Part shown: positions 4,314 through 61,560 of the stretch, in pieces
How the letters are laid out: every line of letters begins with the position of its first letter
Numbering within the stretch: position 1 is the stretch's first letter
Assembly: GCA_026874595.1 (NCBI GenBank)
Contig: CM049306.1
Span: 10,561,019 to 10,625,018, forward strand
Direction: 5' to 3'
Origin: Sipunculus nudus
Taxonomy: Eukaryota > Annelida > Sipuncula > Golfingiida > Sipunculidae
Length of the DNA stretch: 64,000 nucleotides
Notes under the pieces: generated by a model
What the model saw: only the letters and a program-made list of their open reading frames with translations
What the model was told of the DNA's origin: nothing
The model's database searches: none
Program-made: the position numbers and the translations under genes

Positions 4314-5520
4314 GTAGGTTTCGTGACTATACTACGAATTCTTTTTGAGTTATTGCCCTAATATCATTTTAGCATAATTGCTGCTGTGACCTTGAAAACA
4401 TGCATCAAGGTCATCTATGTCCGAACTTGACCTAGCTGTTGATAAGATGCATCAAACCTGTGGGTTTGGTGACTGACATCAAATTCTAACAAAGTTTTTG
4501 CGTTAACATCATTTCAACAAGAAAACGACACAAGGTGGCGCCACCTGTCTGCTGCAAAAGACAACACTATCCAAGATCTTCGGTCAAGTTGATTTTTGGA
4601 CCAATCCACGCATCCCTTATCGAGATATTAATGATTTTGTGTGATTTTCACCATTTATGGCAATATTCAAGGTCAAGTCCAATCTCACAGGAAAGGTCAT
4701 GACCCCAATTTATATAAACATCATCCCACAACCCATGTCTATGTATATGCATAATATGAAAGAAATCTGTCCATTAGTTTTTGACTTATAATGCTCACAG
4801 TACTGTTAAGCGGCAACGATGGGGGTATTAAACAGCACGAAAACAAGTAAAAGAATAACAAGGGGCACCACAAGTTTCTGGTACATGATAATACTATCCA
4901 AGATCTTCGGTCAAGTTGATTTTTGGACCAATCCATGCATCCCTTATTGAGATATTAATGATTTTGTGTGATTTTCACCATATATGGCAATATTCAAGGT
5001 TAAGGCCACTCTCATAGGATAGGTCATGAACCCAATTTAAATAAACATCATCCCACAACCCATGTCTATGTATATGCATAATATGAAAGAAATCTGTCCA
5101 TTAGTTTTTGACTTATAATGCTCACAGTACTGTTAAGTGGCAATTTTGGGGATATTAAAAAGGCACTAAAACAAGTAAGAATAACAGGTGGCCCCACAAG
5201 TTTCTGGAACATGACAACCCTACCCATGATCTTTGATCAACTTGATTTTGGGATCAATCCATGCAAGATTTCTTGAGATATTTAAGAATTTGTGTGATTT
5301 TCCCCAAAATTGGACCTATTTAAGGGCACGGACACTCTCCTAGTAAAGGTCATGACCTCATTTTTAAAAAGGCATGGTCCTCTCACCCATACCTATACAT
5401 ATACCAAGTTTGGTAAAGATCCATGAAATATTTTTCGAGTTATCTCGCCAACAAGATTTATATGCGGCGGCGGAACCGGTATAAAAACTTAGTATCCCCC
5501 ACTTTGTCTGGGGATACGAT
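4314..5520 (+). repeat. Tandem array of ~325-bp non-coding units ending in a hairpin
   Basis: Unit starts at about 4567, 4891 and 5218 share the 'ccaagatctt...ttgatttttggaccaatcca' block, a GAGATATTAATG-like motif and a CCCATGTCTATGTATATGCA block. One GGTGGCGCCACC palindrome lies at 4534-4545. The array ends in a GC-rich stretch and a perfect 8-bp hairpin, GTATCCCC/GGGGATAC (5492-5517). No coding potential is seen. Confidence 0.8.
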
Positions 5521-6385
5521 AATAGGTCTGAGACTTTAAATTACTTCTCTTCTTCAGAGTGACTTTTTAAAACAATATTAAAAAACAACATTAAAAAGGC
5601 TAAACAACTGCAGTTCACCCATGTTAAGTTAAACTCCACAATAATTGGTGCCATATAATGTACTGTCATATATTCACAGATTTACATCTATTCTTACAAC
5701 TGAGATAGATGCACATTTATTGCATAAATGACTTAAGATATACAGTGAAATCAGCTGTCCATAATTTTATGAGGGTTCCCCTGACATATAAAATGCTTTA
5801 AAAGCGATCTTGCCCCAGTATGTTCCTCTGAATGTGGGTTAGCCATGACAGCCTAAGAGGAGAATCCTCCATTGGATCAAAGTCATTCAGGCATCCTCCT
5901 CAACTGGACTCTAGTTTCCCCTTAAATTGTTGACAATGGGCTGCAAATGTCACCCTGTAGCCTGCCTTGAATATATGTAAACTTTTGGTGGGTAAGAAAG
6001 ATGCTATAAAGATGATACATCCTAATGAGAAATTGACCACCAGCCATTAGAGTAACATAGCATACAGTGGCTGCTGACAACAGTGAAACCTGAACCTGGA
6101 GAAACTTGCCTATTGGATATCAAGCTTAAATACTGTTAATATATTGATAAACCTTATGAACTTATTTATCCTGATTAAAATAAATGTTGATTTAATTAAA
6201 TTTACAAGGTGATTCTTAGTTTGATCCAGTTTAATCCTGTATAATCAAGATAAAACTGGACTAAACCAGATAAAAACCAGTTTTTTTTCCACTGTCCTAG
6301 ATTAAACAAGTTTTATCTGGATAAAAGCCAACCCTGACAGACTATTGTATATCATATTACACACCAGAGGTAGACATATCTATCT
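5521..6385. other. Intergenic or intronic, no gene seen
   Basis: AT-rich sequence without a convincing ORF. At about 6200-6330 there are short self-complementary stretches built on GATAAAACTGG/CCAGATAAAA, which recur weakly at about 9500-9540. Confidence 0.5.
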
Positions 6386-6393
6386 ATAAACAC

Positions 6394-8050
6394 TAGATGT
6401 GTCGGAACGACATGAATGCCCCCACCTGGGGCAAATTAGAGTTCAGGAAGTGTTGTATGGTCATAAGTAGGTCAACAAGGGCAAAATGCAAACTCGATCT
6501 GTAAAGGGTCATTATCAAGCAACACAACAAAAATCAGGCCAGTATCTGCAGGCATTGTGAAAAAAGTCCATATATGTGCATTTTTCATGAAAATATCTGT
6601 CTTTCATGAAATTTTCTATGTTCAGGATCTGTCATATGGTGAAAAATAGGTTAACTGGGACGAAACGCGAACTCGATCTGTAAGTGGTCATTATGCGCCC
6701 ACAGACCTAACATTAGGCCAGTATCTGTAAGCATTGTATTGCAAAACTAGAATATTAGCAAAAATTGATAATCATTTATAAATTTAAATTGGAGAGGTAT
6801 ATACCATGTTTCATAACAATCCACCAAATGCTTCCAGAGAAATAAGCTCCTAAGTTTTTTTCTATACTAAGCTCTGTGACCTTGGAAAGTAGGTCAAGAT
6901 CACCCATCTTTAACTTGACCAAGATTTTGTAAATATAATGCAATAGCACTGAGGAAATGAAGTTCCTGTGTTGAATACCTTTGGAGATATCCTGCACAAA
7001 AGGCCAAAATTGAAAAAATCTGATAAAATTTCATTAAAAAATCAGAAATTGCAGGTGGCACCACCAAAATTGTGCAGCACATACAGACCATCAGTCCCAA
7101 TGATCATAGTAAGTTTTGTGAAAATCCACACAATGGTTCCTGAGATATAAACTTCTGAGTGTTTTTCTATAATCAGCTCTAAAATGTAGAAAAATGGGTC
7201 AAGGTCACCCATCTTCGAACTTGACCAAGATTTTATTGATATACATCTTCACTGATGAAATAAAATTCCAACGGTGAATCCTTTTAAAGATATCCCGCTC
7301 ACAAGGTAAAAGTTAACAGACGCGGAACGGACGGACGGACGGACAGACACCGGACAGACAGATGGACAGACGGACAGCCTGGGTGACGACAACAGCCCAT
7401 CAGCCTATGAGCTGAGTGCTAAAAACGGCTGTACATGTGTATTTGTCATGAAAATTTCTATTTTTCATGAATTTTTCTAAGTTTAGGAGCCGTAAAACGG
7501 TCAAAAGTAGGTCAACCGGGACGAAACGCGAACTCGATCTGAAACTGGTCATTATCTGCCTACACACCAAAAATCAGGCCAATATCTGCAGGCATTGCCA
7601 AAAAAAGTCTGTACATGTGTATTTGTCATGAAAATTTCTATTTTTCATGAAATTTTCTAAGTTTAGGAGCCGTAAAACGGTCAAAAGTAGGTCAACTGGG
7701 ACGAAACGCGAACTCGATCTGTAACTGGTCATTATCTGCCTACACACCAAAAATCAGGCCAATATCTGCAGGCATTGCCAAAAAAAGTCTGTACATGTGT
7801 ATTTGTCATGAAAATTTCTATTTTTCATGAAACTTTCTAAGTTTAGGAGCCGTAAAACGGTCAAAAGTAGGTCAACCGGGACAAAACGCGAACTCGATCT
7901 GTAACTGGTCATTATCTGCCCACACACCAAAAATCAGGCCAATATCTGCAGGCATTGCCAAAAAGTCTGTACAACTGTTTGATTTCTGAATGACGGAATG
8001 ACAGCCATGGGTAAAACTATATGCCCCGGCCACTTTGTGGCGGGGGCATA
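6394..8050 (+). mobile_element. Hairpin-bounded non-coding repeat element, copy 1 (1657 bp)
   Basis: It is flanked exactly by ATAAACAC at 6386-6393 and 8051-8058, a likely 8-bp target-site duplication. The 5' end has two consecutive hairpins: GTGTCG-GAA-CGACAT at 6399-6413, then TGCCCC...GGGGCA at 6417-6433. The 3' end has a long hairpin from TATGCCCC to GGGGGCATA at 8020-8050. The interior contains two diverged and three well-conserved units of about 180 bp (unit starts about 7428, 7608 and 7788) around a central segment with a GGTGGCACCACC motif and a GACGGACGG stretch. It contains no ORF of note. It is a near duplicate of 18285-20124 in the same orientation. The transposon class is unknown; the ends do not match the usual hAT terminal pattern. 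Confidence 0.8.
7428..7975 (+). repeat. Three 180-bp tandem units
   Basis: Exact spacing is 180 bases (7428, 7608, 7788). Each unit carries 'tgtacatgtgtatttgtcat', a CGGGACGAAACGCGAACTCG-like block and 'aatatctgcaggcattg'. Unit-to-unit identity is very high. Confidence 0.92.
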
Positions 8051-8059
8051 ATAAACACA

Positions 8060-10051: not shown

Positions 10052-10123
10052 CTGTAAAAAAGAAACACTGGAATTAAAGCTAACAAGTACAAAGCCTTTT
10101 ACAATTAAAATTGTCATCAACAT

Positions 10124-11840
10124 AGTATAGGCTTTAGTGCTGGTTATTAAATCAGTAATAATCTTATGGGAAAAGGTTAAGTAATATATTTTTTTCAGCA
10201 GATCAACAATATTACAATTCTTATGAAAATTGAAAAAGGCTACAAAAAATAATGCTATAGTCTACAAAGTGATGAAAGCTAGAATTTAATTTAGTTTATC
10301 TTTTGAAAAAAAAACCAATGAGACAAACTCTTTTTGCACAGGGCTGATGTACACCTGTCTACCTATAATAAAACTCTCCTGACTGGCCATTCCATTGGTA
10401 TCTAATTTTTCTGCAAAACTTATTATATAACAGAGAAATGTTGAAATAAAATTTGAGTCTTCAATTATTTATAGTTTATAATCCCTGTTTATTCTAACAG
10501 ATAATGAAACACACAATTTATATCATAGGTGAAAATTAATTGTTGCACTCTTTGAAGGTAACAAACTTATAAAATGCCAAGTGAACAATGGACAATGATG
10601 CTCAGCTGACAAGCAAGAACTATGCAATTTCATTCACACCTTTTTGTAACAAATCTGAAGAATCTTTTTGAGTTTTGGATGGGTGGTAGAAGTATAATGT
10701 CTGGTTAAAGGAGAGTCGCTTGATGGTCTGAGACAACAAGTAGTCTAAGGACAAGAGGCATTCAGGAATAAAGCGATTAGAGACTGCATCTAAAAGAAAC
10801 TTGATATACAGACGAAGCCGTTTAACTGCAAGAGGCTTTTGTCAAGCAAATTTGTTGCAATTAACTGATGTTGCATTTAGGCGAAGTTCACCGTCTACCA
10901 TGTGTTAGGGGAAGCCGAATGATCGATTGGACCGCCAAATATCTAATTAATTTAGCGTTTGTTTTGTAACACTATTCGTATTGTGATAAAGAATAAAAAC
11001 ACCAATATTAGATAACTTTCATTAAAAAAAAAATATTTACAAGAGAACACATTAAAAGCCAAGCCATAGATAGTTATTAAAGATCACATATATTAACAAA
11101 GGTAATATACTTCATATACAAAAAAAAATATACAAAATATGCAAAATGTGAGATGTAATTTACATCATATTAATAGTGTTCTATCTGGCACTAAGACTTG
11201 TCTGACTGTTCCAAATAATATGCGTGACATATTTTAACCTACCATTGTTAACCCACATCAAAGAGATGTGTGCTGTGACTGTATCGAACTGCATCACCGA
11301 GCACAGGGTAATTAAGGTCCTTTGTACACATGTGCACCAGCAGGTATCACAGCGGCTACTTTTGAAGTTCCGGTCTATGATCATTAATTGGATAACACAA
11401 ACACAACTCACAGAATCATTGAAGTACTTGCATTTAACGTGAGTTTTTTAACCTTTCTGCCCATGTTTTCCCCTTGTGTTAATCGGAAGTTGCCATTATG
11501 AGGCTTCCGATTATGCGGCGCGTTTTTAATGATAACATATAGGAAATGGTTTTGGTTTTCAGAATCTCTTGCAAATAAGCGGCATTTTCTGTTAACCAAC
11601 TTGCAAATAAGTGGCGTCGTCTGTACTTCTTTATAGTGAGGATTCACAGGCATAGAAATCAAGGCAAAATAAAAGTACAAGGTCTGATTAGAACACCTAG
11701 TTCACCGAAACATTTTCATGGCAGGGGAACTATTAGCCAAATGAACTATGTTCTTTAAATGCTAAATCAAAGAGTAGAAAACACCCTGAAACTTTTGTCT
11801 CACATACAATGCTCCATATAAAAAGTTTCAAAACTAGAAT
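10124..11840. other. Intron 1 sequence, no gene seen
   Basis: AT-rich intronic sequence of the transporter gene. Short ORFs here overlap each other on both strands and show no family motif. Confidence 0.6.
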
Positions 11841-11929
11841 ATGGGTAGTCCACAAGCGACTACGTGTATCTGCCTAAATCAGAGAGGAACGGGTGAAGTG
11901 AGGCATGGATTGAGTGGCAAGGGGAAATA

Positions 11930-12700
11930 GAGTGAGGTGTGTTGCTTATTAGCATGGATGTCTGCAGCCAAAATGTGTATGTAGGTTGCACAACCTACCA
12001 TAAAATCCAGAAAGCTGTCCAAGTTGTATAAACATGCAAAATTTTAGGCAGATAAGTCAAACCACTACTGAGATATGAGTGATTTTAGCCCATGGCAGAC
12101 AAACAGATGGACCCTGTGGAAAAATGGTGGCAGGTTGCACCTACAATTTTGTGTATGATTAAGAGCTATGTGAAATCTATACACATGCAAAATTTCAGGG
12201 GAATATGTCCAACAAGTCCTGAGATATAAGCCTGAATGTCTGCAATGTTAACATAAATAAAGGTGGCCCCACTTGCCAAAAAAATAGAGGAAGCTATCCA
12301 AGATGTATAAACACACAAAATTTTAGGCAGATAAGTCAGACCACTGAGATATGAGTGATTTTAGCCCACGGCAGACAAAAAGACAGACGCTATGCAAAAA
12401 TGGTTGCAGGTGGCCCCTCCAGTTTTCTTTATGATAAAGAGCTATGTGAGATCTATACACAGGCAAAATTTTGGCCCAATTGGTCAAACGGTTCCCGAGA
12501 TATGAGCTTGGATGTCTGCAGCGTAAACTGTAGGTGGCGCCACCTGTCATAAAATCAAGAAAGCTGTCTAGAATGTATTAACCTGCAAAATTTTAGGCAG
12601 ATATGTCAAACCACTGCCGAGATATGAGTGATTTTATCCCATGGCAGACAAACAGACGGATGCTGTGCAAACAAGGGACCCATGGGTCAGGGGCGCTCAG
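11930..12700 (+). repeat. Short array of the GGTGGCGCCACC/GAGATAT repeat family
   Basis: About five half-units. Each has a palindrome or its decayed form (perfect copy at 12533-12544), then 'aaagctgtcc..gatgtata', a 'tgcaaaattttagg' block and a GAGATATGAGTG motif. It reads in the same direction as the large array at 56.3-59.3 kb. It lies within the SLC49A3-like intron 1. Confidence 0.8.
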
Positions 12701-14520: not shown

Positions 14521-15848
14521 TTTCTTTGAAATTTCAGATTTTAAAAGATTAAATCCTTATGTATATATGCTGTGAAAATTAAATCAACAGTGCCAAAGTT
14601 GGACAAAATTAAAGGTATTGATTTTTTATTTATGCTAATAAGTTGAAAAATTTGCAAAATTCAGATCTAATTTTGGGTAAACAATTGAATCTTGATTAAA
14701 TAAAGTTATATTCCTGAAAAAAGGTCTCTAGGTTCAGCAATTCTCATGTTAGGTGAGTAAATATATTTCCTGATTTTTTTAAAAATTGCATTATGTTTTG
14801 ACCCATAACTTCAAAATAATACCCAATACTGACCTAATTTATGGTATGTTCATAGAAAATGTATGAAAGAATGTGAATACTAAATACGATAAAAAACAGA
14901 TCAGTGGTTTTGATATTAGGCAGCCTTGAAGTGTAACAATGGCTTTTTTATGGAAAACAGAGTTTTTTTCCTTAATATCTCGAAGGAACGAAGTCCTAAT
15001 GACCCAATTTTCGGTATGGTAGGAGATTTTGGGGACATCTAAAATTATGCCAACAGCCTGGGGAGCATAGAGATGTGCACTGAATGACCTACAGTCATCA
15101 AAGTGGACTGCTTGACAATGTAAGGGAATACAACAAGAGCCTCCAAAAAATTCAATAACTAGCCTAATTTTGCAGCTTTTATTTTCAAATTTAAGATTTT
15201 AACAGATTAAATCCTTATGTGTACATGCTGTGAAAATTAAATCCACAGTACTTACAGGAAAAAAACGTGCCGTGGCCAAAGTTGGGCAAAATTGAAGGTA
15301 CAAATTTTATATTTTTGCCAATATTTAAAAAAATTTAACAGATTTTGATCTAATGTTTGGTATACAATTAAATTTTGATTAATTAAAGTTGTATTACTGG
15401 AAAAAAGTCCCTACCTTTAACACTTTTTGTCCTAAGTGACCAAATATCTTCCTGATTTTTTACAAAGTCCATTATGTTTGGGCCCATAACTTTTTTAAAT
15501 TATATAATACTGACTTAATATCTAGCATGTACATAGGAACTATATAGAGGAATATTTATGGTAAATATGAAGAAAACCAGATGAGTGGTTTTGAAATTAG
15601 GCAGTCCTGAAGTGTGAAAATAGATTTCTAATAAAAAATTGAGGTTTTCCCTTAATATCTCGAAGGAACGAAGTCCTATTGACCCAATTTTCGGCATGGT
15701 AGGAGATTTTGGGGATATCTAACTGTATGCCGAATTTCAGATTCGTAGGTCCAACGGTGTTGAAACGTGCCAGTCTTACGGACGGCAAGACAGACGGACG
15801 GACAATGGACCATGACTATAGCTCAGATGACTTATAGTCAGCTGAGCT
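14520..15848 (+). repeat. Tandem pair of ~670-bp non-coding units ending in a hairpin
   Basis: Two units begin near 14530 and 15190. They share 'gattaaatccttatgt', a CTCGAAGGAACGAAGTCCTA block at 14976 and 15658, and GACCCAATTTTCGG at 15001 and 15681 (spacing 680). The second unit runs into a CAGACGGACGGAC stretch and a 29-base near-perfect palindrome at 15820-15848 (AGCTCAG...CTGAGCT). Relatives in the opposite orientation lie at about 38300-38760 and 51340-52720. Confidence 0.82.
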
Positions 15849-15849
15849 A

Positions 15850-17160
15850 AAAATGGTTGCAGATGGCACCACCAGTTTTGCGTATGATAAAGAGCTATGT
15901 CAGATCTATGAATATGTAAATTTTCAAGAGGATATGTCAAACCAGTCTGGAGATATAAGCATGGATGTCTGCAGCATGAACGTGAATGTAGTTGGCCCAT
16001 CTGTCATAAAATCAAGAAAGCTATCCAGGATGTATACTCATGCCGAATTTCATGTGAATTAGTCAAACCACTGCAGAGATATTAGTGATTTTAAGTAATA
16101 TTTGGTTATCTAAATCTCAGAAGAATTTCTAAGATATTACCTTAAATCTACCTTTATTAATAGAACTAGAATACGGGTAGTGAAAAGCGACTACATGTAT
16201 CCGCCAAAATCAGAGTAGGACAGGTGAAGTGAGGCATGGATTGAGTGGCAAGGGGAAATAGAGTTACATGTGTTACATACCAGAATGGATGTCTGCCATG
16301 TAAATATGATTGTCGGTGGCGCCACCTGTTATTTGAATTTCTATCCAAGATAGGTGGAAAAGTCAAACCACTGCAGAGATATGAGTGAATTTATCCCACA
16401 GCAGACAAACAGATGGAAGTTGTGCAAAAATGGCTGCAGGTGGTGCCACCATTTTTGTGTATGTTATAAAGCTATCCAAGGGCTACATTTGTGTAAAATT
16501 TTTTCCTTATTGGTCATACGAGTCCCGAGATATAAGCATTGATGTCTGCAGTGTAAAAGTGAATGAAGCTGGCACCACCTGTCATAAAATCAAGAAAGCT
16601 ATCCAGGATGTATACGCATGCTGAATTACAGGTAATATGGTCAAACCACTGCAGAGATAGGAGTGATTTCAACCCAAGGGAGACAAACAGATGGATGCTG
16701 TGCAAAAATGGCTGCAGATGGTGCCACCATTTTTCTGTATGTTATAAAGCTATCCAAGGGTTACATTAGTGTAAAATTTTTTTCCTGATTGGTCAAATGA
16801 GTCCGGATATATAAGCATGGATGTCTACAGCATGAACATGAATGTAGGTGGCGCCACCTGTCATAAAATCAAGAAAGCTATGCAGAATGTATACGAGTGC
16901 CAAATTTCAGGTGAATTAGTCTAATCACTGCAGAGATATGAGTGATTTTAACCCAAGGCAGATGAACAGAAGGACACAGTGCTAACATGGTTGCAGGTCA
17001 ATGCCAATTGGTTAGGCACCAGTTCACATGTGACCTGAAAATTGGTGTAAGTTTCGGAAAAATCAGTCCAGTAGTCTAAGAGGAGTTCTCCAGAAACGAA
17101 CGCGGCAGAACCTGATCAAAAACATAGTATCTGCAAAACTTCTTTTTGGCGGATACAATA
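15850..17160 (+). repeat. Diverged array of the GGTGGCGCCACC family with a terminal hairpin
   Basis: Perfect palindromes lie at 16315-16326 and 16847-16858, with decayed ones between. Each is followed by 'atcaagaaagctatcc' and a GAGATATGAGTG-type motif. The array ends in a GTATCTGC...GCGGATAC hairpin at 17127-17156, the same type as at 59243-59272. Confidence 0.82.
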
Positions 17161-18130: not shown

Positions 18131-18284
18131 CAAAATACATATTTGTATTTGTATTTAAATACAGTCAAAGTATGTATTAATATTTGTATTTGTGATGTGC
18201 AAAATGATAATATTTCTAATTGTATTTGTATTTGATCTAATATTTGATGTATTTGATCAAATACTGTACAAATACATATGTAAC

Positions 18285-20124
18285 TAGATGTGTCGGAACG
18301 ACACGAATGCCCCCGCCTGGGGCAAATTAGAAACATTTGTTAAATTTTGTAAAATTTTTTAAGTTCAGGAAGTGTTGTTTGGTCAAAAGTAGGTCAACAA
18401 GGGCAAAATGCAAACTCAATCTGTAAAGGGTCATTATCAAGCAACACACCAAAAAATCAGGCCAGTATCTGCAGGCATTGTGAAAAAAAGTCCATATATG
18501 TGCATTTTTCATGAAAATTTCTGTCTTTCATGAAATTTTCTATGTTCAGGATCTGTCATATGGTGAAAAATAGGTTAACTGGGACGAAATGCGAACTCAA
18601 TCTGTAAGTGGTCATTATGCTCCCACAGTCCAAACATTAGGCCAGTATCTGTAAGCATTGCATTGCGAAACAAGAATATTAGCAAAAGTTGATAATCATT
18701 TATAAATTTAAATTGGAGAGGTATATACCATGTTTCATAACAATCCACCAAATGCTTCCTGAGAAATAAGCTCCTAAGTTTTTTTCTATACTAAGCTCTG
18801 TGACCTTGAAAGTAGGTCAAGATCACCCATCTTTGAACTTGACCAAGATTTTGTAAATATAATGCAATAGCACTGAGGAAATGAAGTTCCTGTGTTGAAT
18901 ACCTTTGGAGATATCCTGCACAAAAGGCCAAAATTGAGAAAATCTGATAAAATTTCATTAAAAAATCAGAAATTGCAGGTGGCGCCACCAAAATTGAGCA
19001 GCACATACAGACCATCAGTCCCAATGATCATAGTAAGTTTTGTGAAAATCCACACAATGGTTCCTGAGATATAAACTTCTGAGTGTTTTTCTATAATCAG
19101 CTCTAAAATGTAGAAAAATGAACTTGACCGAGATTTTATTGATATACATCTTCACTGATGAAATAAAATTCCAACGGTGAATCCTTTTAGAGATATCCCG
19201 CTCACAAGGTAAAAGTTAACAGACACAGAATGGACGGATGGACGGACAGACACCGGACCGACAGATGGACAGACGGACAGCTTGGGTGACGACAATAGCC
19301 CATCAGCCTATGAGCTGAGGGATAAAAACGGCTGTACATGTGTATTTGTCATGAAAATTTCTATTTTTCATGAATTTTTCTAAGTTTAGGAGCTGTAAAA
19401 CGGTCAAAAGTAGGTCAACCGGGACGAAACGCGAACTCGATCTGTAACTGGTCATTATCTGCCCACACACTAAAAATCAGGCCAATATCTGCAGGCATTG
19501 CGAAAAAAAGTCTGTACATGTGTATTTGTCATGAAAATTTCTATTTTTCATGAAATTTTCTAAGTTTAGGAGCCGTAAAACAGTCAAAAGTAGGTCAACC
19601 GGGACGAAACGCGAACTCGATCTGTAACTGGTCATTATCTGCCCACACATCAAAAATCAGGCCAATATCTGCAGGCATTGCGAAAAAAAGTCTGTACATG
19701 TGTATTTGTCATGAAAATTTCTATTTTTCATGAATTTTCTAAGTTTAGGAGCCGTAAAACGGTCAAGAGTAGGTCAACCGGGACGAAACGCAACTCGATC
19801 TGTAACTGGTTATTATCTGGCCACACACTAAAAAATCAGGCCAATATCTGCAGGCATTGCGAAAAAAAGTCTGACATGTGTATTTGTCATGAAAATTTCT
19901 ATTTTTCATGAAATTTTCTAAGTTTAGGAGCCGTAAAATGGTCAAAAGTAGGTCAACCGGGACGAAACGCGAACTCGATCTGTAACTGGTCATTATCTGC
20001 CCACACACCAAAAATCAGGCCAATATCTGCAGGCATTGTGAAAAAAGTCCGTACAACTGTTTGATTTCTGAATGACGGACATGGGTAAAACTATATGCCC
20101 CGGCCACTTTGTGGCGGGGGCATA
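18285..20124 (+). mobile_element. Hairpin-bounded non-coding repeat element, copy 2 (1840 bp)
   Basis: A direct copy of 6394-8050. It has the same 5' double hairpin (GTGTCG-GAA-CGACAC at 18290-18304, then TGCCCC...GGGGCA) and the same 3' hairpin ending GGGGGCATA at 20124. It is about 183 bases longer, close to one extra 180-bp unit (four well-conserved units instead of three). The central segment carries a perfect GGTGGCGCCACC at 18978-18989 where copy 1 has GGTGGCACCACC. It appears to sit within a TATTTGTATTTG-rich repeat (18130-18284 and about 20590-20700). No clear target duplication is seen. Confidence 0.82.
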
Positions 20125-22200
20125 AAAATAAATATTTATATCTGCCAAAATTTTGAAAATTTAACTACTACCTAACTTTAGGACAACCCAAAAGGCAGCA
20201 TCAGGTCAAGTGATTCACTTCTTCCTGATGTTTGCAATTACAAATGTGACTGGATAACCAACTGCTTAGTCACTGTGCTCATGGTCCATAAATGCTCATG
20301 GCCTCTGCCTCACCAGGTTGTACAGTGGCAAAGGTCAGAACTGGGAAAGTGTTCCGTCCTGAGCTCTGCTGTCTTTCAGACAACTGGTCTGAGGAACTTG
20401 TGTTCCTGCGTTGCAACAGGGAATTTATAAAGACTTTCTGGAATAAAGATGTCTTTCAGACAGTAGGTTTTGAGGAATTTATGTTAGAGGACTGTGTTGG
20501 AATATTTTTTTTTTAACTTTGTAGAATATAGGACCCTGATCTCTAAAAGTACACAAGTTGTATCAGCATGAGTAGACATGAATATTTATGGTGCTCGAAA
20601 TAAATAAATATTCTGTATAAACTACATTTGTGTATTTATATTTGATGTTCTGTATTTGTATTTGAATTTGCTTAACTGACCTGTATTTGTACAGAGAAAC
20701 TCCTACTTGCAGAAAACTCACTAATGTGGATACTAAATCTCAGTCCCTTCAATTTTGCCTCTATATTATGTTTAAAGTAAACTCAGTAAAGTAGACAACT
20801 AACTATCCCGGACAACAGACACAACTTTCCCGTCCTGCCAGCATATCTAGTACATAATATGACCCTTTAAAGCGGACAGACATCACGAGTTCTATTTTTG
20901 TTCATATATTTGCCAGGAGATGGCGCTTTATTCATTTTCTACATCAATGTGATGATTTTTATTTTTGAAACTAAAACAACATGATACTCTGTTTAAATTG
21001 TGTTTTCTTGCAACCGATGCATTTAAATAAGCACTATACTAGCACTTTTAGCTGCTTTTAGCTGGCTAAAACTGTCAAAGAGGTTATATCTAGGCCAGAA
21101 TCAGATCAGCTCACTACTGCTCCTGATAAACAAACTATGCTTTATCACCTGCGTTTTCATAGGCACCCAAATGCTATTGAAATTATGTAACTGGGATCCT
21201 ACTCGCATTACCCTCCAAACTTTGTTCCTCATTCATCAACATATTATGATATTAAGACTATATTATAGTAGCCATGCTCCCATTTCAATATGGATACTGG
21301 CCCAGCGAGTACCGCCCTAGAGCCATGTTGTAACATTTTGCTTAAATACAGGGTGCCTGGCCAGATTTTAATCCATCTTTGGACCTATTGTCCAATGTTT
21401 GATAAGTTCAAGAGATGGACTACTTGGCCAGTGTGCTATCAGTTTCCTCAGAGCCCTTTCTTATATTAATATAAAATATTCCAGGTAGGGCAATTCCTTT
21501 CAAGGGAGTGGGAAATATGAAAGAATAAAATCATCTGTGTGCAGGACATTTTCTGATCATAATTTAATATTTTATCATTATAATAATATTAATAATGAAC
21601 TTGAATAACTGCAGATGAATTTACAATATTTCACTCCATAAACTTAGTAGTTTAAATACAAAATTATGTATAGATGTGTAAAAATTCATGCAAAGGCTTT
21701 TTTTTAGGGATTATAGAGTAGGTGCCTATGGATGAATTGATGTGAATGGAATAGACTTAATGCCTAGGAGGGTCATAAATTTGATGGGGATAGAATTAAA
21801 ATGAGTGGTGATAAACTGATGTAAACCCTAAACTCATTATTTCTGCAATAAGCATTTTGTATATATTATCCTTGGGAGAACACCCGGTTCGGCAGAACTA
21901 TAGAAACCGTGCTTCAGCCTGCCGCCGGTACAACGGGTGTTGCATAATAAATTGTTTCCTGGAAAAGGCCGATACATATCATTTTCCTCAGAATTCCCGT
22001 ATTTAATTTTGCTCATAGCTGGAGTTTTTTTTTATATTAGAGGAGGAGGGGTCCGGGGAACCGTCTGAACAGGGTGTGGAGGCAGAGCCCCCACCTAAAG
22101 CTTAATTTTCCTGTTAAAATAGTAAATGGTTTCCCATTTTCGTGACAGATGCCTCTTCAATCGCAGATATAAATGAAAACTTGCTCCTGCTGGTATCTCG
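20125..22200. other. Intron 1 sequence, no gene seen
   Basis: Contains TATTTGTATTTG-like repeat remnants at 20590-20700. No convincing exon was found. Confidence 0.5.
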
Positions 22201-29355: not shown

Positions 29356-30150
29356 TTATTTAGCATCAACAGGTTTTACTTGACTCTGTCCTACAATATG
29401 ACCCAAAAATGTAACTTGTGCATGACTAACCTCAGATTTTACTAAGTTGATGGTCAGACGTGCTTCGCTGAGTCTTTCGAAGAGGTCGCGAAGAATTTGC
29501 AGATGTCTCTCCCAGGTGTCGCTGTACACGATAAGGTCATCAATATATGCGTCGCAGCCCTGAATGTCCTTGACAACCATATGGATGAGGCGCTGGAACG
29601 TGGCATGCGAATACTTCATGCCAAACGGTATAAATTTATACTGGTACAGTCCTTGCGGCGTCACAAATGCGGACACTACTTTCGCTCGTTCTGTCAGTGG
29701 AATTTGCCAGAATCCTTTAAGCAAGTCAAACTTGGAGACACATCTGGAGCTACCGACTCTATCAATACAATCATCGATCCTCGGAATCGGGAACGTGTCA
29801 GTCTTGGTGACAGAGTTCAGTTTTCCATAATCTGTGCACATACGGTAACTTCCATCAGGTTTTGGCACAAGAATACACGGTGAACTCCAGTTACTGTTAC
29901 AAGGTTCAATAAAATCATTGTCCATCAAATACTGAATCTCATCCTGTAGATACTTTTGCTTTTCTGGATCCAGTCTATAAGGATGCTGCTTGACTGCGCT
30001 GGCCTCGCCAACATCAACGTCATGGCACAATATGTTAGTTCTTGTTGGAATGTCATTAAACAAATGTTCATAATTCCGCAGCAGGTTCTTGAGGTCTTGT
30101 TGTTGTTGTGCGGTAAGTTGTGACAGTTTGGCATCCAGGTTGTTAAGCAC
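29356..30150 (-). pseudogene. Reverse transcriptase, Gmr1-like element
   Basis: An open frame of about 264 codons. RT blocks in order: HPYRLDPEKQKYLQDEI, NWSSPCILVPKPDGSYRMC, KFDLLKGFWQIPL (first catalytic Asp), FVTPQGLYQYKFIPFGM, then AYIDDLIVYSDTWERH with the catalytic Asp pair at 29536-29547, and LGHIVGQSQVKP. The AYIDD form is that of gypsy-group RTs. A region of several dozen codons connects it directly to the integrase C-terminal module upstream. The frame is lost by a one-base change at about 29362. Confidence 0.93.
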
Positions 30151-30297
30151 GCCTGAGTTTTTCAGTGGTACTGTTCCACACTGAATGTCTACATCACACT
30201 TACAATCAGTATCTACTTTAACTGGGTCAGGGTCAGTTTTTACACAATTAACAGCAGTTACATCATGTACAACATCTGATGTGCTATTTTTGTCATA

Positions 30298-30680
30298 TTA
30301 TGGTATCAACATGTTAACGTGGCATTGTTGTTTCTTCTTACGCCTTTCTGGTGTAAACAGTATGTAATTTAAATCACTGACTTTCTTGTCAAAAATGTAA
30401 GGACCAAAATACCTAGCTTGCAGAGGTCTGCCAGGGATGGGAAGTAAGACAAGGACCTTTTCACCAGGCTCAAACGTCCTACTTACAGTGTGCTTGTCAT
30501 ACTTTGTTTTTATTTTACTTTGTGCAGATTTTAGATTAGACTTTACAATTTCACAAGCATAATGTAGTTTAGTGCGAAAGTCTGATACATACTGCAACAA
30601 ACTAAGAGAATAAGGATTTTCACACAAGAGTTTTTCTTTAAGCAGTTTTAATGGACCGCGAACTGAGTGTCCAAAAACCT
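30298..30680 (-). pseudogene. Integrase C-terminal (GPY/F-type) module
   Basis: The translation contains SDFRTKLHYACEIVKS, then FEPGEKVLVLLPIPGRPLQARYFGPYIF, a GPY/F-type module found after the catalytic core of gypsy-type integrases and thought to act in DNA binding and multimerisation. It sits out of frame with the core because of a one-base insertion at about 30680. It stays open into the RT linker. Confidence 0.88.
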
Positions 30681-36700: not shown

Positions 36701-36985
36701 CTAGATTTAGTCATTTAGACGTATTAAGGGGGTAAAGGATAATCGACATAAGGCGAAGTTCAGTAGCCTGCCGCGACCCTTCTAGTTCCCTGTTTATGAC
36801 GTTTAACTATCAGACTGGCAGTATTATGTCAAGGACAGTTCTTTCGGCCATGTGGTAATTTTTAACTCAAATTTCTGTGTTTTTTTTATATTATCCTGGG
36901 GGAAAATCCTACACATTGATAAATCAGTTTTGGTGAAAATTACTCAAATCTGAAGAATTTTTGCATGTTTATTGTACATGTTTAT
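32902..36985. other. Long non-coding interval, no gene seen
   Basis: The flank of the LTR element should hold the 5' LTR and primer site at about 32990-33800, but no copy of 27855-28636 is recognisable. The rest is AT-rich with a (TA)n tract at about 33697-33739 and a 14-base G tract at 36513-36526. An exon-like stretch after a TTCTTGCAG at 36080 is not supported by any partner. Confidence 0.5.
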
Positions 36986-36989
36986 TCGT

Positions 36990-38060
36990 CTTAGATAGCT
37001 TATAGTTAACTAGACAGGTGGCGCCACCTACCTTCCGTTTTCGAAGAGTACAAAGATGCCCTTTTCTCAAGAGTGGTTTGTCGCATCGGCCTGATATTTT
37101 GCATGTTTTTTTTCATCTTGAGTTGCCTTCTCGTGTGCAAGACTGCTGTAGCCACCTAATTTCATTTCCGCATTGCGTCCATTGATAGATCTGATTTGGT
37201 GAATATCGCACACATCTGGAAAGTTTTTTGCATGTTTATTTTACAAGTTTTTCTGTCTTGGGTAGCTTTTCCGTAAACTCGACAAGTGGCGCCTTCTATC
37301 ATATATTTTTTATTTTGCAGAATACATGGATTGCCTTTTCTCATGAGTAGTTATGGGTATCGGTCTGATAATTTGCATATTCATCCATCTTTTTGTTTGC
37401 AAGACTGCCTACAATCGCCTATTTGTAAAATACACGAATTCATTAATTTTGGAGGGATATAATGTATCGGCCTGAAATAATGCATGTCGATAGTTCTTTG
37501 ATTGCTTAATTTTGTAGACAAGACTGGTGGCTCCGTCCACATATTAAAGAATACACTCAGGCATTCATCTAAAGAAGGGTTTCATGTATCAGCCTGAACA
37601 TTTGCATGTACATAGATCTTGGAATGATTGATCTTATATACATCACTGATAGAGCCACCTACAATAAATTGCATCTGGCGGCCATCTTTGTTTGGTAAAA
37701 TCACACATATCCCAGGAGTTGTTCAATTCAAAGGCCTAAAATTTTGCATGTCTATACATCTCGGAAAGCTTTTATATATATAAGACAGGTAGCACATTCT
37801 ACAATCATGTATATTGTGATATACATTTATGCATTTATCTCATGAGTGGTTCAATGTATCGGCCTGACGCTTTGTATGTTCCTAGATCTAGGATGGCATG
37901 ATCCTGTATATATGACTGATGGTGCCACCTAAGAAGCCATTAAGTTTCGTCCATCCTGTGCATCTTTGGATACTTTGGCACCTCTGATGCCACGAATGCG
38001 GAAGGCTGTCATTTCAGGAAAGATTTATGCCTCGGTGCTTCGGCGGATACCTGTAATCGC
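36990..38060 (-). repeat. Reverse-oriented, strongly diverged GGTGGCGCCACC-family array
   Basis: There is one perfect palindrome, at 37017-37028. About seven further units carry 'ggtgccacct', 'gagccacct' and similar decayed forms, at spacings of about 120-250 bases. Read on the minus strand, each is followed by a TATATACA-rich block, 'aagctttcc' or 'gatcta', and a 'tgcaaaattttaggccgata' block, the same grammar as the 56-59 kb array. It precedes a (TA)n tract at 38085-38129. Confidence 0.7.
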
Positions 38061-38082
38061 TTGTCGACTGCCCACATTCTTG

Positions 38083-43391: not shown

Positions 43392-44258
43392 TCATGTTGA
43401 CAGATTATCTTTGCGTTCTTCCTGTGGTCCAAGTTCAATAGCGGGATGGCTACCGGAAATAGAATCTGCGCCTGTAGTGCGTTTCCGGTGGCATGGAATA
43501 AGGTTAAGAAAAGCCTGGCGGTACTTCTGATTAAGATATCCGTATATTATAGGATTAATAACAACTGTGGTGTTGAGAACTGTTACGGAGGCAGTGAAGA
43601 TAGTCGAGGTGACCCCGAAGTCCATCTCTAAACATATATACACAACCATAAACGGTAACCAAAGGAGAACGAAGAATAACACTGTCACGCTGAACAGACG
43701 CGCCATCCGACGACGTTTCTTGGCTCTATTGCCATTGATGACTGTATTTGTTGATGAAGAAACAAAACACCACAATGATGTGTAGCCAATAATCGTGACA
43801 AATAACGGGACAACAAAACACAAACCGAAAAGACAAACCATCAGAGCAATTTGATAAGACACTCTTAAATCTAAGTAGCAATAATACACTTGGTTTTTGT
43901 TTGAAAGCTTCAAATGTATCGCATACATGAGTGTCATTGCTGCTGGTATAATCCATATCGCAGCCAAAGTTGCCGCCATGTTTTTTAAATTTCCACGGTT
44001 CCTAGTGCACTTGCGCACTGCTATATTCCGTTTGACGCTGATGAACATAATAGAAGATGCAATGACGCTCCCTGACAAAATCTGTATGTATATTGTTGCT
44101 TTACACATGAATTCTCCTAGAATCCAATTTACAGTCAAACGCGTGGTAGCAATGGGAGGAATGCTCAGCAACATCAGCAATGACGCCACAGCCAGGTTTA
44201 TAATCAACACGTCCGTTTGGTCAAGGGACTTCCGGTTTCTCCGTATAAACCTGAGAAC
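43392..44258 (-). CDS. Class A (rhodopsin-like) GPCR, exon for TM2 to C-terminus
   Basis: 867 bases: 288 codons and a stop. The acceptor is TTTTTCAG at 44259-44260, phase 0 from the TM1 exon. Class A landmarks: LAVAS in TM2, Cys 3.25 (EFMCK), TM3 ending ISVKRNIAV, Trp 4.50 (AAIWIIP), an extracellular loop 2 Cys (VYYCYLD), Pro 5.50 and Tyr 5.58 (FVVPLFVTIIGY), a basic loop 3 (AKKRRRMARL), TM6 LLWLPF, TM7 NPIIYGYLNQKYR, and a Cys after helix 8 (LIPC). Two conserved positions are changed: Asp 2.50 is Ser, and the D-R-Y triad is Lys-Arg-Asn. It is a plasma-membrane receptor by family. The ligand class cannot be assigned; the general look is of peptide-type receptors. Strong hydrophobic segments and an intact frame argue against a pseudogene. 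Confidence 0.9.
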   Translation of the reverse strand, partial: VLRFIRRNRKSLDQTDVLIINLAVASLLMLLSIPPIATTRLTVNWILGEFMCKATIYIQILSGSVIASSIMFISVKRNIAVRKCTRNRGNLKNMAATLAAIWIIPAAMTLMYAIHLKLSNKNQVYYCYLDLRVSYQIALMVCLFGLCFVVPLFVTIIGYTSLWCFVSSSTNTVINGNRAKKRRRMARLFSVTVLFFVLLWLPFMVVYICLEMDFGVTSTIFTASVTVLNTTVVINPIIYGYLNQKYRQAFLNLIPCHRKRTTGADSISGSHPAIELGPQEERKDNLST

Positions 44259-44260
44259 CT

Positions 44261-45404
44261 GAAAAACAAATAGAGATTTTCACATTTTATTGTCTCCGCC
44301 ACACGTTTACGTGTGTGTTTGTGTGGGTATATGTTTTCACAACAACATTGAAGTAACCATGTAAGAAATCTAATGAAATTTTCAAGGCATTTCATGAATG
44401 TGACGTCATGATTTTGGTGTGGATCAGCCACTTTATCCGGATTCAGGAATATCATCAAGCTATATTCACAAATATACATTCACTTATGCCTGGGATAAAC
44501 CACTTAAACCTGGGAAAGGGACTGAATAAATAAATGCAATGCAGATTTAATTGCTTAAATTCTTTGCATTTTAAATTATTTTCCTTTTTTTCTATCACAA
44601 GGCATTATTGAAATGAAAGTGTAATCATGGGGCGACAAGAACCTGAATTATAGGAGTGTAATATTGGTATTTAATTTGTGAACCTCCGGGACTAAATAGA
44701 GATGAAATGTAAGATATCCCAACTACACCTCCGTCACCATTGGAATGACCCACAAGCACCCCTCAACACAGGTGCGCATCCAATCAGAAGTTTTTCCGGT
44801 TCTCCTACCCCAAGGCTGAGTTTAGTAAAATAACTTCAGGGGCGGATACAGGATAGAGGAAAAGGCTCGCCCAAGAAGACTAATGACAAAAGGTGAGAAA
44901 AAGTCACCATGTCGGGAAAAGGGGTGGAAGGGGTGCCGCACAGATTTGTCTGAAACCCTTACAAAAGGTTGCATTGGATGAATAAGAGGGGTCTATTTTG
45001 CTTTTTAGTGTTCCTCACGTGGGGGCGGTCGCTGTCCAATCTTTTATGAATATATATTTAGTAACCTTGGATATCCTAGAAGAAATACCTCCACCTCATA
45101 AAATAGCATTTAGGCAAGCCATATAGATAGGTTAGTTATATATGGTATGTAAAGGGTCCAAACAGTAGAAGGCTTAAAGTAAGATATTTTTAAGTTCCCC
45201 CACAATACTTTATACAGTTAACTTTCACGTTTACCTAAGGGCTAGCAGTATATAATATCCCTCGACTTAATAATTACAATGACTATTTTCCCATAGTGAT
45301 ATAAAGGGGCGTAGCCAAGATTTACGGAAAGGGGGTGCCGGGGGAGGGGGGGGGGGGGGCTCGGGCAGGGCTAGGGCTACAGCATATCCGCTGGTCAAGG
45401 AGTG

Positions 45405-48402: not shown

Positions 48403-48404
<2 letters not shown>

Positions 48405-50301: not shown

Positions 50302-50309
50302 TAAGGCAA

Positions 50310-51330: not shown

Positions 51331-51334
51331 TTTG

Positions 51335-56290: not shown

Positions 56291-56299
56291 TACAAGTGC

Positions 56300-59280
56300 T
56301 AAACACTAAACAGACGCTGTGCAAAAATGGTGGCAGGTGGCACCACCAATTTTGTGTATGATTAATAGTTATGTGAGATCTATACACATGCAACATTTCA
56401 GGGGGATATGTCAAACCAATCCTGAGATATAAGCCTGAATGCAGCCTATACATAAATGTAGGTGGCGCCACCTGCCACAAAATCCAGAAAGCTATCCAAG
56501 ATGTATAAACCTGCAAAATTTTAGGCAGATATGTCAAACCACTGCCGAGATATGGGATACATCGTGTATATAGGTGGCGCCACCTGTCATCAAACAAGAA
56601 AGCTGTCCATGATGTATACACATGCAAAATTTCAGGTGGATAAGTGCAACCAATGCAGATATATGAGTGTTTTTATCCCACGGCAAACAAACAGACTGAT
56701 GCTGTGCAAAAATGATTGCAGGTGGCGCCACCAGTTTTGCGTATGATCAAGAGCTATGTGAGATCTGTAAACATGCAAAATATTTGCAAATCAGTCAAAT
56801 GGTTCCTGCGATATGAGCTTGGATGTCTACAGCGTAAATTTGAATATAGGTGGCGCCACCTGTCATTAAACAAGAAAGCTGTCAAGGATGTATAAGCCTG
56901 CAAAATTTCAGGTGGATAAGTCAAACCCATCTGAGATATAAGTGATTTTATCCCAAGGCAGATGAACAGATGGAGGCTGTGCAAAAATGGTTGCAGGTGG
57001 CGCCACCAGATTTGCGTATGATAAAGCGCTATGGGAGATCTATACACATGCAAAATTTTGGCCCAACTGGTCAAACGATTCCCGAGATATGAGCTTGGAT
57101 GTCTGCAGCTTAGACGTGAATGTAGGTGGCGCCACCTGTCATAAAATCAAGAAAGCTGTCCATGATGTATACACATGCAAAATTTCAGGTGGATAAGTAC
57201 AACCAATGCAGAGATATGAGTGTTTTTATCCCAAGGCAGATGAACAGACGGACGCTGTGCAAAAATGGTGGAAGGTGGCACCACCGATTTTGTGTTTGGT
57301 TAATAGCTATGTGAGATCTATACACATGCAAAATTTCAGGGAGATATGTCAAACCAGTACTGAGATATAAGCCTGAATGTCTGCAGCCTATACATAAATG
57401 AAGGTGGCGCCACCTGCCACAAAATCCAGAAAGCTATCCAAGATGTATAAACCTGCAAAATTTTAGGCAGATATGTCAAACCACTGCCGAGATATGAGTG
57501 ATTTTATCCCACGGCAAACAAACAAACGGATGCTGTGCAAAAATTATTGCTGGTGGCGCCACCAGTTTTGCGTATGATCAAGAGCTATGTGGGATCTGTA
57601 AACATGCAAACTTTTTGCCAAATCAGTCAAATGGTTCCTGAGATATGAGCTTGGATGTCTGCAGCCTAAATTTGAATATAGGTGGCGCCACCTGTCATAA
57701 AACAAGAAAGCTGTCAAGGATGTATAAGCCTGCAAAATTTCAGGTGGAAAAGTCAAACCCAGCTGAGATATGAGTGATTTTATCCCAAGGCAGATGAACA
57801 GATGGACGCTGTGCAAAAATGGTTGCAGGTGGAACCACAAGTTTTGCTTATGATAAAGAGCTATGGTAGATCTATACACATACAAAAATTTTGGCCCAAC
57901 TGGTCAAACGGTTCCCGAGATATGAGCTTGGATGTCTGCAGCTTAGACGTGAATGTAGGTGGCGCCACCTGTCATAAATCAAGAAAGCTGTCCAGGATGT
58001 ATACACATGCAAGTTTCAGGTGGATAAGTGCAACTAATGCAGAGATATGAGTGTTTTTATCCCAAGGCAGATAAAAAGATTGACGCTGTGCAAAAATGGT
58101 GGCAGGTGGCACCACCAATTTTGTGTATGATTAAGAGATATGTGAGATCTATACACATGCAAAATTTCAGGGGGATACGTCAAACCAGTAATGAGATATA
58201 AGCCTGAATGTCTGCAGCATGTACATAAATGTAGGTGGCGCCACCTGCCAAAAAAAAATCCAAAAAAGCTATTCAAGATGTATAAACCTGCAAAATTTTA
58301 GGCAGATATGTCAAACCACTGCCGAGATATGAGTGATTTTATCCCACCGCAAACAAACAGATGGACGCTGTGCAAAACTGTTTGCAGGTGGCGCCACCGC
58401 TTTTGCTATGATAAGAGCTATGTCAGATCTATAAACATGCAAAATTTTTGCCCAATCGGTCAAAAGGTTCCTGAGATATAAGCCTGGATGTCTGCAGCGT
58501 AAATTTGAATGTAGGTGGCGCCACCTGTCATAAAATCATGAAAGCTGTCAAGGATGTATAAACCTGCAAAATATCAGGTGGATAAGTGCAACAAATGCAG
58601 ATATATGAGTGTTTTTATCCCAAGGCAGATGAACAGACGGACGCTGTGCAAAAATGGTTGCAGGTGGCACCACAAGTTTTGCGTTTAATAAAGAGCTATG
58701 GTAGATCTATAAACATGCAAAATTATGGCCCAACTGGTCAAACGGTTCCCGAGATATGAGCTTGGATGTCTGCAGCTTAAACGTGAATGTAGGTGGCGCC
58801 ACCTGTCATAAAATCAAGAAAGCTGTCCAGGATGTATACACATGCAAAATTTCAGATTTATAAGTCCAACCAATGCAGAGATATGAGTGTTTTTATCCCA
58901 AGGCAGATGAACAGATTGACGCTGTGCAAAAATGGTTGCAGGTGGCGCCACCATTTTTAGTGTATGTTATAAAGCTTTCCAAGGGCTACATTTGTGCAAA
59001 ATCTTTAGCCTTTTCGGTCAAAGGGTTTCCGAGATATGTGGGTTTATGTGTGGAAACAGACGCTCAAATGGACGCTGGGCAGGGAGGAAAGGTCAGAGGT
59101 CAACCAAAAATGAGGGCGCAGCAGTTCACATGTTACCGATCATAATTCCGAATTTTAAAAAATTCTGCCCAGTGGTTATGGAGGAGTTTTCCGGAAACCT
59201 ATGCGGTGATGGCGGCAGCGTCGGCGTTCGACTGAAAACATAGTATCAGCAAAACTCTGTTTTGGCGGATACAATGATTG
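56300..59280 (+). repeat. Higher-order tandem array, ~277-bp dimers carrying GGTGGCGCCACC
   Basis: Perfect palindromes start at 56461, 56573, 56721, 56849, 56996, 57125, 57403, 57552, 57681, 57958, 58234, 58387, 58514, 58792 and 58941. Spacings alternate at about 148 and 128, or sum to about 277 where one copy has decayed. Half A continues TGTCATAAAATCAAGAAAGC and ends in a 'cagacggacgctgtgcaaaaatgg'-type block. Half B continues AGTTTTGCGTATGATAAAGA and ends in 'gtctgcagcg'. Both halves carry 'acatgcaaaattt' and GAGATAT. There are about 10-11 dimers. The array ends in a GTATCAGC...GCGGATAC hairpin at 59243-59272. All reading frames are broken, so it is non-coding. Confidence 0.93.
59243..59272 (+). 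other. Terminal hairpin of the 277-bp array
   Basis: GTATC...GATAC outer stem with an inner CAAAAC/GTTTTG stem, one mismatch and one bulge. A homologous hairpin ends the 15.9-17.1 kb array. Confidence 0.8.
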
Positions 59281-59620
59281 TAGCTGGCACCACCAGTCTT
59301 ATATACAACGAAGAGATATATAAATATGCCCAATGTCAGACTGATATGTCAAACCTCTCCTGTGAAATAAGCAGGGACATACACTATAAAAAAAATTATT
59401 GTAGGTGGCGCCACCAGTCTTGTACACTATAAAGCTACCCGATATGTATAAACATGCCCAATTTTAGGCTAATGTATCAAATTCCTCTGTAGAAATAAGC
59501 AGGCGCATACACTGCAAAATTCAATGTAGGTGGCACCACCTGTCTTGTAAATAAGAATACCATCAAAGACCCATAGACAGGTCAAAATATCAGTCCAATA
59601 CATCAAACTTTCCCAGAGTT
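59280..59620 (+). repeat. Diverged three-unit tail of the palindrome family
   Basis: Units begin at about 59284 (GGCACCACC), 59404 (perfect palindrome, 59404-59415) and 59528 (GGTGGCACCACC), about 122 bases apart. Each continues AGTCTTGTA or TGTCTTGTA and an ACATGCCCAAT block. Confidence 0.82.
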
Positions 59621-59639
59621 TGATGCACTTGGCTGACAA

Positions 59640-60080
59640 GGCTTAGGTGAGTAAGGCAGTTGCCCCCGAGTGACCTGTGACAAATTGCTGCCCCAAGCTA
59701 CTGCACAGAGTGAACTCTTGACCTGCACCTGGCTAGACTGAGTGAACTTTTGACCTGTACCTGGCTGCACTGAGTGAACTCTTGACCTATTGCATAATCT
59801 GACACAGTTGGTAGTCTGCCAAAGCTATAAATAGATTCAGGCTGAACTTTGGTACCAAATATGATGCAGTGAGCAGTCTTCTAAAGCTATAAATAGAATG
59901 CAGCTACTGCACTGAGTGAACTCTTGACCTCTACCTGGCTGCACTTCTTCAAATCCTGGCACTGTGCCAAAACTATTTATAGAGGTGACATCGTCTTGGC
60001 TAATGGCCAACATCAAGGCACTGGCAATCTGCCAATGGTAAACCAAGTGCTGCCAGCTGTACACAAAACTGGTCCCTACT
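59640..60080 (+). repeat. Imperfect ~50-bp direct repeats
   Basis: 'gagtgaactcttgacct' and 'acctggctgcact' recur at about 59709, 59749, 59775 and 59907. The 'aaagctataaatag' block occurs twice. Confidence 0.7.
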
Positions 60081-60639
60081 TGAAATAACTTTTAAATTTA
60101 TTTTCCCAAAACAAAATGCTTTTCAGCTGACTTTTTATAAAAAATATATCAGGAATATATGTAAAATTATTACGGATGCATACTGAATGCAAAATTAAAA
60201 TACAGATATATCTCATTGATGGCATATTCTTGAATGAAGTTGAGTAGGGATACCAATAATTTATAATCAACGTACAGTTGTCTTTATATAGCCACAGAGG
60301 GCTGAATATCCATGATTGTAACATTGCCTGGTATGATGAATAAATTAAATCAAAAATCAAAATTTTTTAAAAGCTTTTAAAAAAACTTTCTTTTCAATAT
60401 TAACCAAATATAACCTGAAATCTAAATGTCTAGTGGCATGATGTAATAGATGCTGATAAACTGGTGCCAGGCTAGATGTAACAGCATCACACAGCTAACA
60501 TATGTGATAAAATGACTCAATTCAATCTCCATAATTCAGTCAAATATAATTCTTGTGGAACCATTAATGACAATTATTATAAGAATTATTATAGGGATTA
60601 TTCTTGTAAAATATTTAACAAACTGGCTTCAGTGGCATC

Positions 60640-61560
60640 AGTCGAAAAACGTTTCGCAGGTTTATAACTCATATAGGAAGATACAGCAAACTGGCTAAGT
60701 TCAGCTTCCGGTAACTCAGCCAAAAAGCACTGAACCAAAACCATTTGAACAAACTTGAATTATCAACATCTGAGGATAATTAATGTGTGAGATTTAAGAA
60801 TTTGGCCAAGTGGTTTTTGAGAAGAAGATCTTTGTAGCCACTGAGCTAAAATGGGCTGTTATGGCATATGACTAAATTCAGCTTCCAATAACTTAGCCAA
60901 AAGTCACTGAAAAGAGACCATTTGAACAAAATTCAGAAAGCACTACCCTAGGATCATTTCTGTGCGATATGAAACATTTTGACCAAATTGTTTCAGAGAA
61001 GAAGTTTTTTTTTGTAGCCCTCATTGTGATACAGGCACTGATGACCCCGTACAAAAAAGGCCGATGCAGGTGGCGCCACCAATACCTCAATTTCAGATAT
61101 GACCTATGTTACCAACATTGGCATAAATTTGGTGATGATAGCTCCAGCTCTTTCTGAGATTTAAATTTTAATATGCTTTTTTACACATTTAACAAAGTTC
61201 AACCTCTTGTAACTCGGCCAAAAATCTCCAAACTGGAACCATTCGAACAAACTTGAAAAAGATTGTTCCAGGGATCATTTCTGTGAAATATTGGACAATT
61301 TGGCTGGACAGTTTCGGAGAAGAAGATTTTTAAAGCTTTTTTAGCTTTTTCCCTATAAAATCTAAGAAAATGCAGTTAGAAAAAATATATACAAAATACG
61401 ATATAGTTTTTTGGATGACTGATTATTTGCAAAAAAGTTGGTAATGCTAGCTCTTGCCGTTTTTGAGATAGCTATCGTTAACGTACAGACGACGCACGAC
61501 ACACGACGCGCGACGGACGACGCCGCACCATCGCATAAGCTCACAGGTTCGCTAAAAACT
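60640..61560 (+). repeat. Repeat units with GAACCATTTGAACAAA, ending in a CGACGACGG stretch
   Basis: Units at about 60741, 60918 and 61239 share 'ccatttgaacaaa', a GGATCATTTCTGTG block and GAGAAGAAG. A GGTGGCGCCACC unit is embedded at 61069-61080, followed about 80 bases on by 'tctgagattt'. The end is a GACGACGCACGACACACGAC-like stretch and a weak stem ending GCTAAAAA, as in the other families. Confidence 0.75.

Follow-up and report, generated by a model that had tools for sequence, protein, structure and literature searches.

A 12-bp palindrome opening the central tandem repeats of HINE-like Helentrons in Sipunculus nudus

Palindrome-carrying repeats in the window and in the genome

The window, i.e., the whole stretch of 64,000 nucleotides analyzed here (Sipunculus nudus, contig CM049306.1, positions 10,561,019 to 10,625,018), contained arrays and elements marked by GGTGGCGCCACC, a 12-letter mirror-symmetric word that opens the repeat units within several families of rolling-circle elements (referred to as the palindrome). 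The parts carrying it were as follows.

4312..5524, plus strand: F3 array (unit about 326 bp) with a HINE-like right end; perfect palindrome at 4534-4545, two further sites (4860, 5187) being decayed
6393..8052, minus strand: E4a, HINE-like, both ends; 180-bp tandem repeats and, at 7054, a palindrome with one mismatch (F2)
11834..12676, minus strand: E2, F1 array with a HINE-like left end, right end not found; perfect palindrome at 12533-12544
15841..16093, minus strand: fragment of an F1 array; decayed palindrome at 15862
16166..17157, minus strand: E1, HINE-like, both ends; perfect palindromes at 16315-16326 and 16847-16858
18284..20126, minus strand: E4b, HINE-like, both ends; perfect palindrome at 18978-18989 (F2)
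36914..38081, plus strand: E6, diverged F1-like units with an E1-like left end near 38039-38081; perfect palindrome at 37017-37028 (F8), orientation opposite to that of E1
56313..59278, minus strand: main F1 array, made up of A and B units, with 15 perfect palindromes (first at 56461, last at 58941); HINE-like right end at 59216-59278, left end not found
59283..59635, plus strand: F5 units; perfect palindrome at 59404-59415
60692..61475, plus strand: F4 repeats; perfect palindrome at 61069-61080, element ends not identified

The sites in the window were divided into families F1 (12533, 16315, 16847, and both unit types, A and B, of the main array), F2 (7054 and 18978), F3 (4534), F4 (61069), F5 (59404), and F8 (37017); F6 and F9 (a 336-bp tandem) were found outside the window. 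Other features were also noted in the window. An insert within the F3 array (480-4312) had several minus-strand open reading frames and inverted pieces at its edges, and looked DIRS-like by eye; no Pfam family was found for the three open reading frames tried. A retroelement pol in pieces, with reverse transcriptase and integrase domains, lay at 29356-32584 (minus strand), an open frame of a rhodopsin-type 7tm receptor at 43392-44279 (minus strand), and a palindrome-free 191-bp tandem array, whose four copies were 98% alike, at 62808-63563.

The 23 perfect copies counted in a preliminary description of this DNA were all recovered at the positions given there, while 100 dinucleotide shuffles yielded none, and places with up to two mismatches numbered 39 against 0.52 expected. 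In the 1.43-Gb genome, about 17 contigs of which are probably chromosome-sized judging by their lengths and positions, the count proposed in that description gave 111,729 perfect palindromes (one per ~13 kb) and 14 copies of the reversed word; Markov models built on 200 kb of its sequence predicted 10-21, in agreement with the earlier view that the word is very unlikely by chance. Among 20 regions of 10 kb placed at round coordinates, all 31 copies fell within 6 regions, and the palindromes are thus clustered. Of the 12-mers occurring at least four times in the window (536 words, the shifted ones being counted on either strand), the palindrome and the words offset from it by one base had the largest numbers of contexts that do not align with one another (8, 7, and 5). 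The genome-wide count allowing one mismatch was 218,178, perfect copies included. A reading of this total as low divergence was rejected after a local control: the one-mismatch/perfect ratio of 0.59 was an ordinary value for the 147 F1 windows compared (10th percentile, 0.39; median, 1.0), and the count was therefore not used as evidence.

Palindrome carriers with visible ends are HINE-like Helentrons

E4a and E4b were 93-94% alike, and their similarity ended at the same points, with differing flanks. Read on the minus strand, both started with ATGCCCCCGCC and a complementary inverted repeat (IR), and ended with a subterminal inverted repeat (subTIR), a hairpin, and CTAG. The same plan of ends was found in E1 with TGTATCCGCCAAAA. 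The subTIRs were 14 bp long in E1 (TGTATCCGCCAAAA) and 11 bp in E4b (ATGCCCCCGCC; one mismatch in E4a), HINEs having subTIRs of at least 11 bp. For the ends of E1, E2, E3, and E4, the predicted folds showed an IR next to the 5' subTIR and, toward the 3' end, a hairpin; the fold of the E6 3' end was ambiguous. Central tandem repeats were present, and T directly followed CTAG in the copies examined. In the available text of two studies (PMC4067079, PMC7492417), subTIRs, the IR, and the end hairpin are features of HINEs, non-autonomous Helentrons.

Outside the window, the left end adjoined the F1 array at all nine loci (L005, L010, L011, L022, L023, L028, L031, L042, and L045), four of which (L010, L022, L028, and L031) possessed both ends, and the F3 right end adjoined the palindrome in 5 of the 7 F3 loci examined. 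No known end was found alongside the F4, F6, and F9 sites and the F2 locus L041, most of which were covered by 1.2 kb only. The ends that could be seen, in carriers of F1, F2, and F3, are those of non-autonomous Helentrons (HINEs).

The genome gave at least 143 matches to Helitron_like_N, and the one Helentron-type protein copy examined contained Helitron_like_N, OTU, PIF1, and endonuclease domains, the same set as that described for Helentrons. The 16 kb surrounding one autonomous Helentron contained neither the three subTIR words nor the palindrome, even when one mismatch was allowed. Furthermore, of the four E4 elements (E4a, E4b, and those of L013 and L023), two had both ends and no match to the palindrome within three mismatches; therefore, mobility does not seem to require it. 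The element in L013 (3584-9985) was a 6.4-kb E4-type element without the palindrome, its inside consisting mostly, among the matches listed, of a long array of 180-bp units.

A spaced module and the retention of the palindrome

In the preliminary description, eight copies outside the main array were regarded as hard to align, and this held for three of them. Those at 12533, 16315, and 16847 showed 72-84% identity to the main array, and distant yet detectable relatives lay at 59404 and, on the minus strand, in the element around 37017; the 37017 unit alone, with the palindrome masked, was not detected (E 0.16), and other units of the same element were detected by F1-unit profiles even when masked. 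On the other hand, 4534, 18978 (which has a one-mismatch sister site at 7054), and 61069 went undetected once the palindrome was masked. F1-unit profiles matched F2, F3, and F4 weakly (best E values of 4.5e-5, 4.2e-5, and 0.0098, respectively), and gave E values of 0.38 or worse, or no match, after masking. In one comparison, each family was represented by one or two chosen sequences. When 14 representatives, each selected for carrying the palindrome, were aligned, the A preceding it was invariant, and beyond that A only single columns were invariant or nearly so, chiefly those of AAATTT and GAGATAT boxes. Several families thus had little in common beyond the palindrome, this A, and the two boxes, and a full-length alignment as one young family, the outcome that was to speak against special retention, was not obtained.

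The order of the module was common to the families: A and the palindrome, a spacer, AAATTT, and GAGATAT at a nearly fixed distance. A GAGATAT-like motif had been placed 75-100 bases on in every context; it was real and more tightly positioned, at 85-91 bases from the start of the palindrome, and did not extend to 16315 (where GAGATAT lies at 62), 37017, or 59404. With up to one mismatch, GAGATAT occupied this position in 69 of 86 sites, including four sites of the L026 satellite that are probably one-mismatch chance matches, and in 31 of 40 arrays, compared with 3.2% of random places. The 86 sites came from the window, from the 20 regions placed at round coordinates, and from the surroundings of listed matches, and are not one random sample; the overlapping loci L003, L006, and L007, along with L008 in whole or in part, were excluded from the counts of F1 retention, spacing, CTCF, element ends, and mismatch variants. 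Exact GAGATAT was present in the position in 23 arrays, the corresponding values for other 7-base windows away from the box being a mean of 0.2 and a maximum of 1. Genome-wide, the exact pair at an offset of 87-92 had 29,662 matches on one strand and 30,277 on the other (59,939), and the reversed pattern had none. Since these are strand-wise matches, the exact box accompanies at most 54% of the perfect sites; a hand estimate from base composition gave ~0.1% by chance. In collections of non-eukaryote contigs, the palindrome plus GAGATAT was matched three times (genome_contigs) and once (viral_contigs), and these matches were read as chance because their contexts were, by eye, coding and unrelated.

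The nearly fixed spacing, together with the diverged filling, suggested a single ancestral module. It points to common descent of this module, so that the palindrome is inherited as well as kept, its source being an old module rather than one young family.

Whether the palindrome stays while the rest diverges, as had been proposed, depended on the type of unit. Among 109 F1 units, located via the part right of the palindrome and not via the palindrome itself, it was perfect in 45 and had one difference in 26; in those less than 70% identical elsewhere, 5 of 25 were intact, against 0.09 expected. In B units, the palindrome ranked 3rd of 138 windows for conservation overall, and 1st of 138 12-base windows in the diverged B units (less than 70% identical elsewhere), with 5 of 16 intact. 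In A units, its rank was average overall (70 of 118), below average in young arrays (108 of 118), and 17 of 118 in diverged units, none of the nine palindromes being intact. Across families, 10 units of F2, F3, F4, and F9 with a recognizable first half (the window row 2-71, a slice artefact at the window edge, being dropped) had 0, 0, 0, 0, 0, 1, 2, 3, 4, and 4 mismatches, and in four more matches neither the first half nor the palindrome was present. Counting against special retention, GAGATATGAGTG was kept about equally well as the palindrome in B units. Taken together, the results supported, without proving, the retention of the palindrome in at least one unit type (B) and across families, while in A units retention failed. 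If one site were kept per F1 dimer (278 bp), this would resemble the single site in each unit of F3 (about 326 bp) or of F9 (336 bp).

Decay was largely at CpG: 21 of 47 single-mismatch copies were altered at the two center positions, and CpG o/e in a genome sample was 0.55. Regarding selection for a hairpin, no fully palindromic variant was found among the examined sites with up to three mismatches, and non-CpG pairs of changes comprised 23 mirrored (6 of them complementary) and 103 non-mirrored pairs.

Interpretation and comparison with known systems

The reading we prefer, with a rough probability of 0.5, is that the palindrome is an old element box in HINE-like central repeats that is kept by constraint, perhaps as a putative site for a host protein. 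It would be the first box of a module in the central tandem repeats of several HINE-like families. Helentron Rep/helicase-endonuclease proteins would spread the elements, and tandem amplification would multiply the module; growth and shrinkage of central repeats in tandem are discussed for oysters in the available part of PMC8268682. Retention in B units would imply that something constrains the palindrome in source copies, and a candidate sequence-specific host DNA-binding protein recognizing a two-fold site may do so, such binding possibly favoring expression, amplification, or the chromatin state of the element. This binding step, taken alone, is put forward tentatively, as less likely than not. 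More speculative still, and in our view rather improbable, is the broader proposal that HINE-type Helentrons spread more than 100,000 copies of a putative 12-bp two-fold host-protein site, each with a defined spacing to a second box, thereby building a genome-wide, possibly architectural set in which selection would keep approximately one site per 280-340 bp repeat. Any protein that binds the palindrome would meet one all over the genome, ~13 kb apart. As the box is precise and countable across Helentron repeat families, the question of why satellites keep short conserved motifs becomes directly testable.

The most serious alternative, possible and yet less likely than constraint, is plain inheritance: an old palindrome, a few amplified source copies, and homogenization may mimic retention with no selection. 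The A units, which showed no special retention, the ordinary one-mismatch ratio, and the common descent evident from the fixed spacing are all consistent with this; however, it does not readily account for the first rank of the palindrome in diverged B units, or for its survival in families in which the spacer can no longer be aligned.

That the elements have spread a CTCF site or half-site is quite unlikely. The AGGTGGCGCC core of the palindrome resembles the CTCF core, and with a CTCF matrix (maximum, 31.2 bits), the context of 4534 scored 18.4 bits and the L026 satellite 25.1 bits. However, the 86 contexts had a median of 7.8 bits and a lowest value of 4.2 bits with this matrix, the upstream half of the motif was missing in most of them, and the full motif above background was reached only in the L026 satellite and nearly at 4534. 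This satellite, moreover, was read as lacking the GAGATAT module and is probably of separate origin. It forms about 25 units of 339 bp in L026 (1-8834 of G000:C12:5000001-5010000); exact palindromes occurred in only seven units, and the unit contained, in addition to the near-complete CTCF-like word, a YY1-like word. In favor of CTCF, CTCF-like motifs at TAD borders of a squid are described in the available text of PMC9023564.

The role as a recombination element suggested earlier, a hinge at which arrays start, end, or exchange units, is equally improbable. For a satellite of a clam, 13 of the 16 junctions are placed at a 12-bp palindrome (PMC5139131, available text); here, the array edge at 16998 was inside an A palindrome and two more edges were 5-9 bases before one. 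Most edges nevertheless lay away from palindromes: among 20 mapped F1 stretches, 9 began at unit phase 256-257 and 4 ended at 274, while the palindromes occupy 15-26 and 164-175; edges within one family may be inherited and are then not independent. A cis signal (hairpin or Rep site) needed for rolling-circle transposition, related to the transposition end also suggested earlier, fits the symmetry of the word and its location in HINE-like elements and is very improbable, since the element ends lie elsewhere, two E4 elements and the surroundings of the autonomous copy lack the palindrome as described above, its own hairpin is weak (-1.3 kcal/mol), and fully palindromic variants were absent.

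A constrained box in HINE-like repeats may be compared with systems in the literature, in whose figures of HINEs or satellites the palindrome box may already stand. A text search with shorter forms of the word gave no bivalve repeat paper among the matches listed, letters in figures and supplements not being searchable, and the exact word was matched in a chitinase paper. As far as the available text of PMC5139131 describes them, BIV160/Cg170, DTC84 pearl, and phBglII400 of bivalves are similarly old satellites with conserved motifs and conserved palindromes within repeats; that of phBglII400 is also 12 bp long, a likeness of description and not of letters. They differ from the present arrays, most edges of which are not at the palindrome. 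HINE/DINE-1 elements (PMC4067079, available text) share subTIRs, the IR, the 3' hairpin, central repeats, and Helentron partners in the genome, whereas their terminal hairpins are not the internal palindrome found here. Cg_HINE of Crassostrea gigas (PMC7492417), likened here by description rather than by letters, differs in that the available text does not mention a palindrome within the repeats. It resembles the present elements in its left and right modules with subTIRs, IR, and 3' palindrome, and in its central satellite-like tandem repeats, in which conserved segments are common to otherwise dissimilar monomers.
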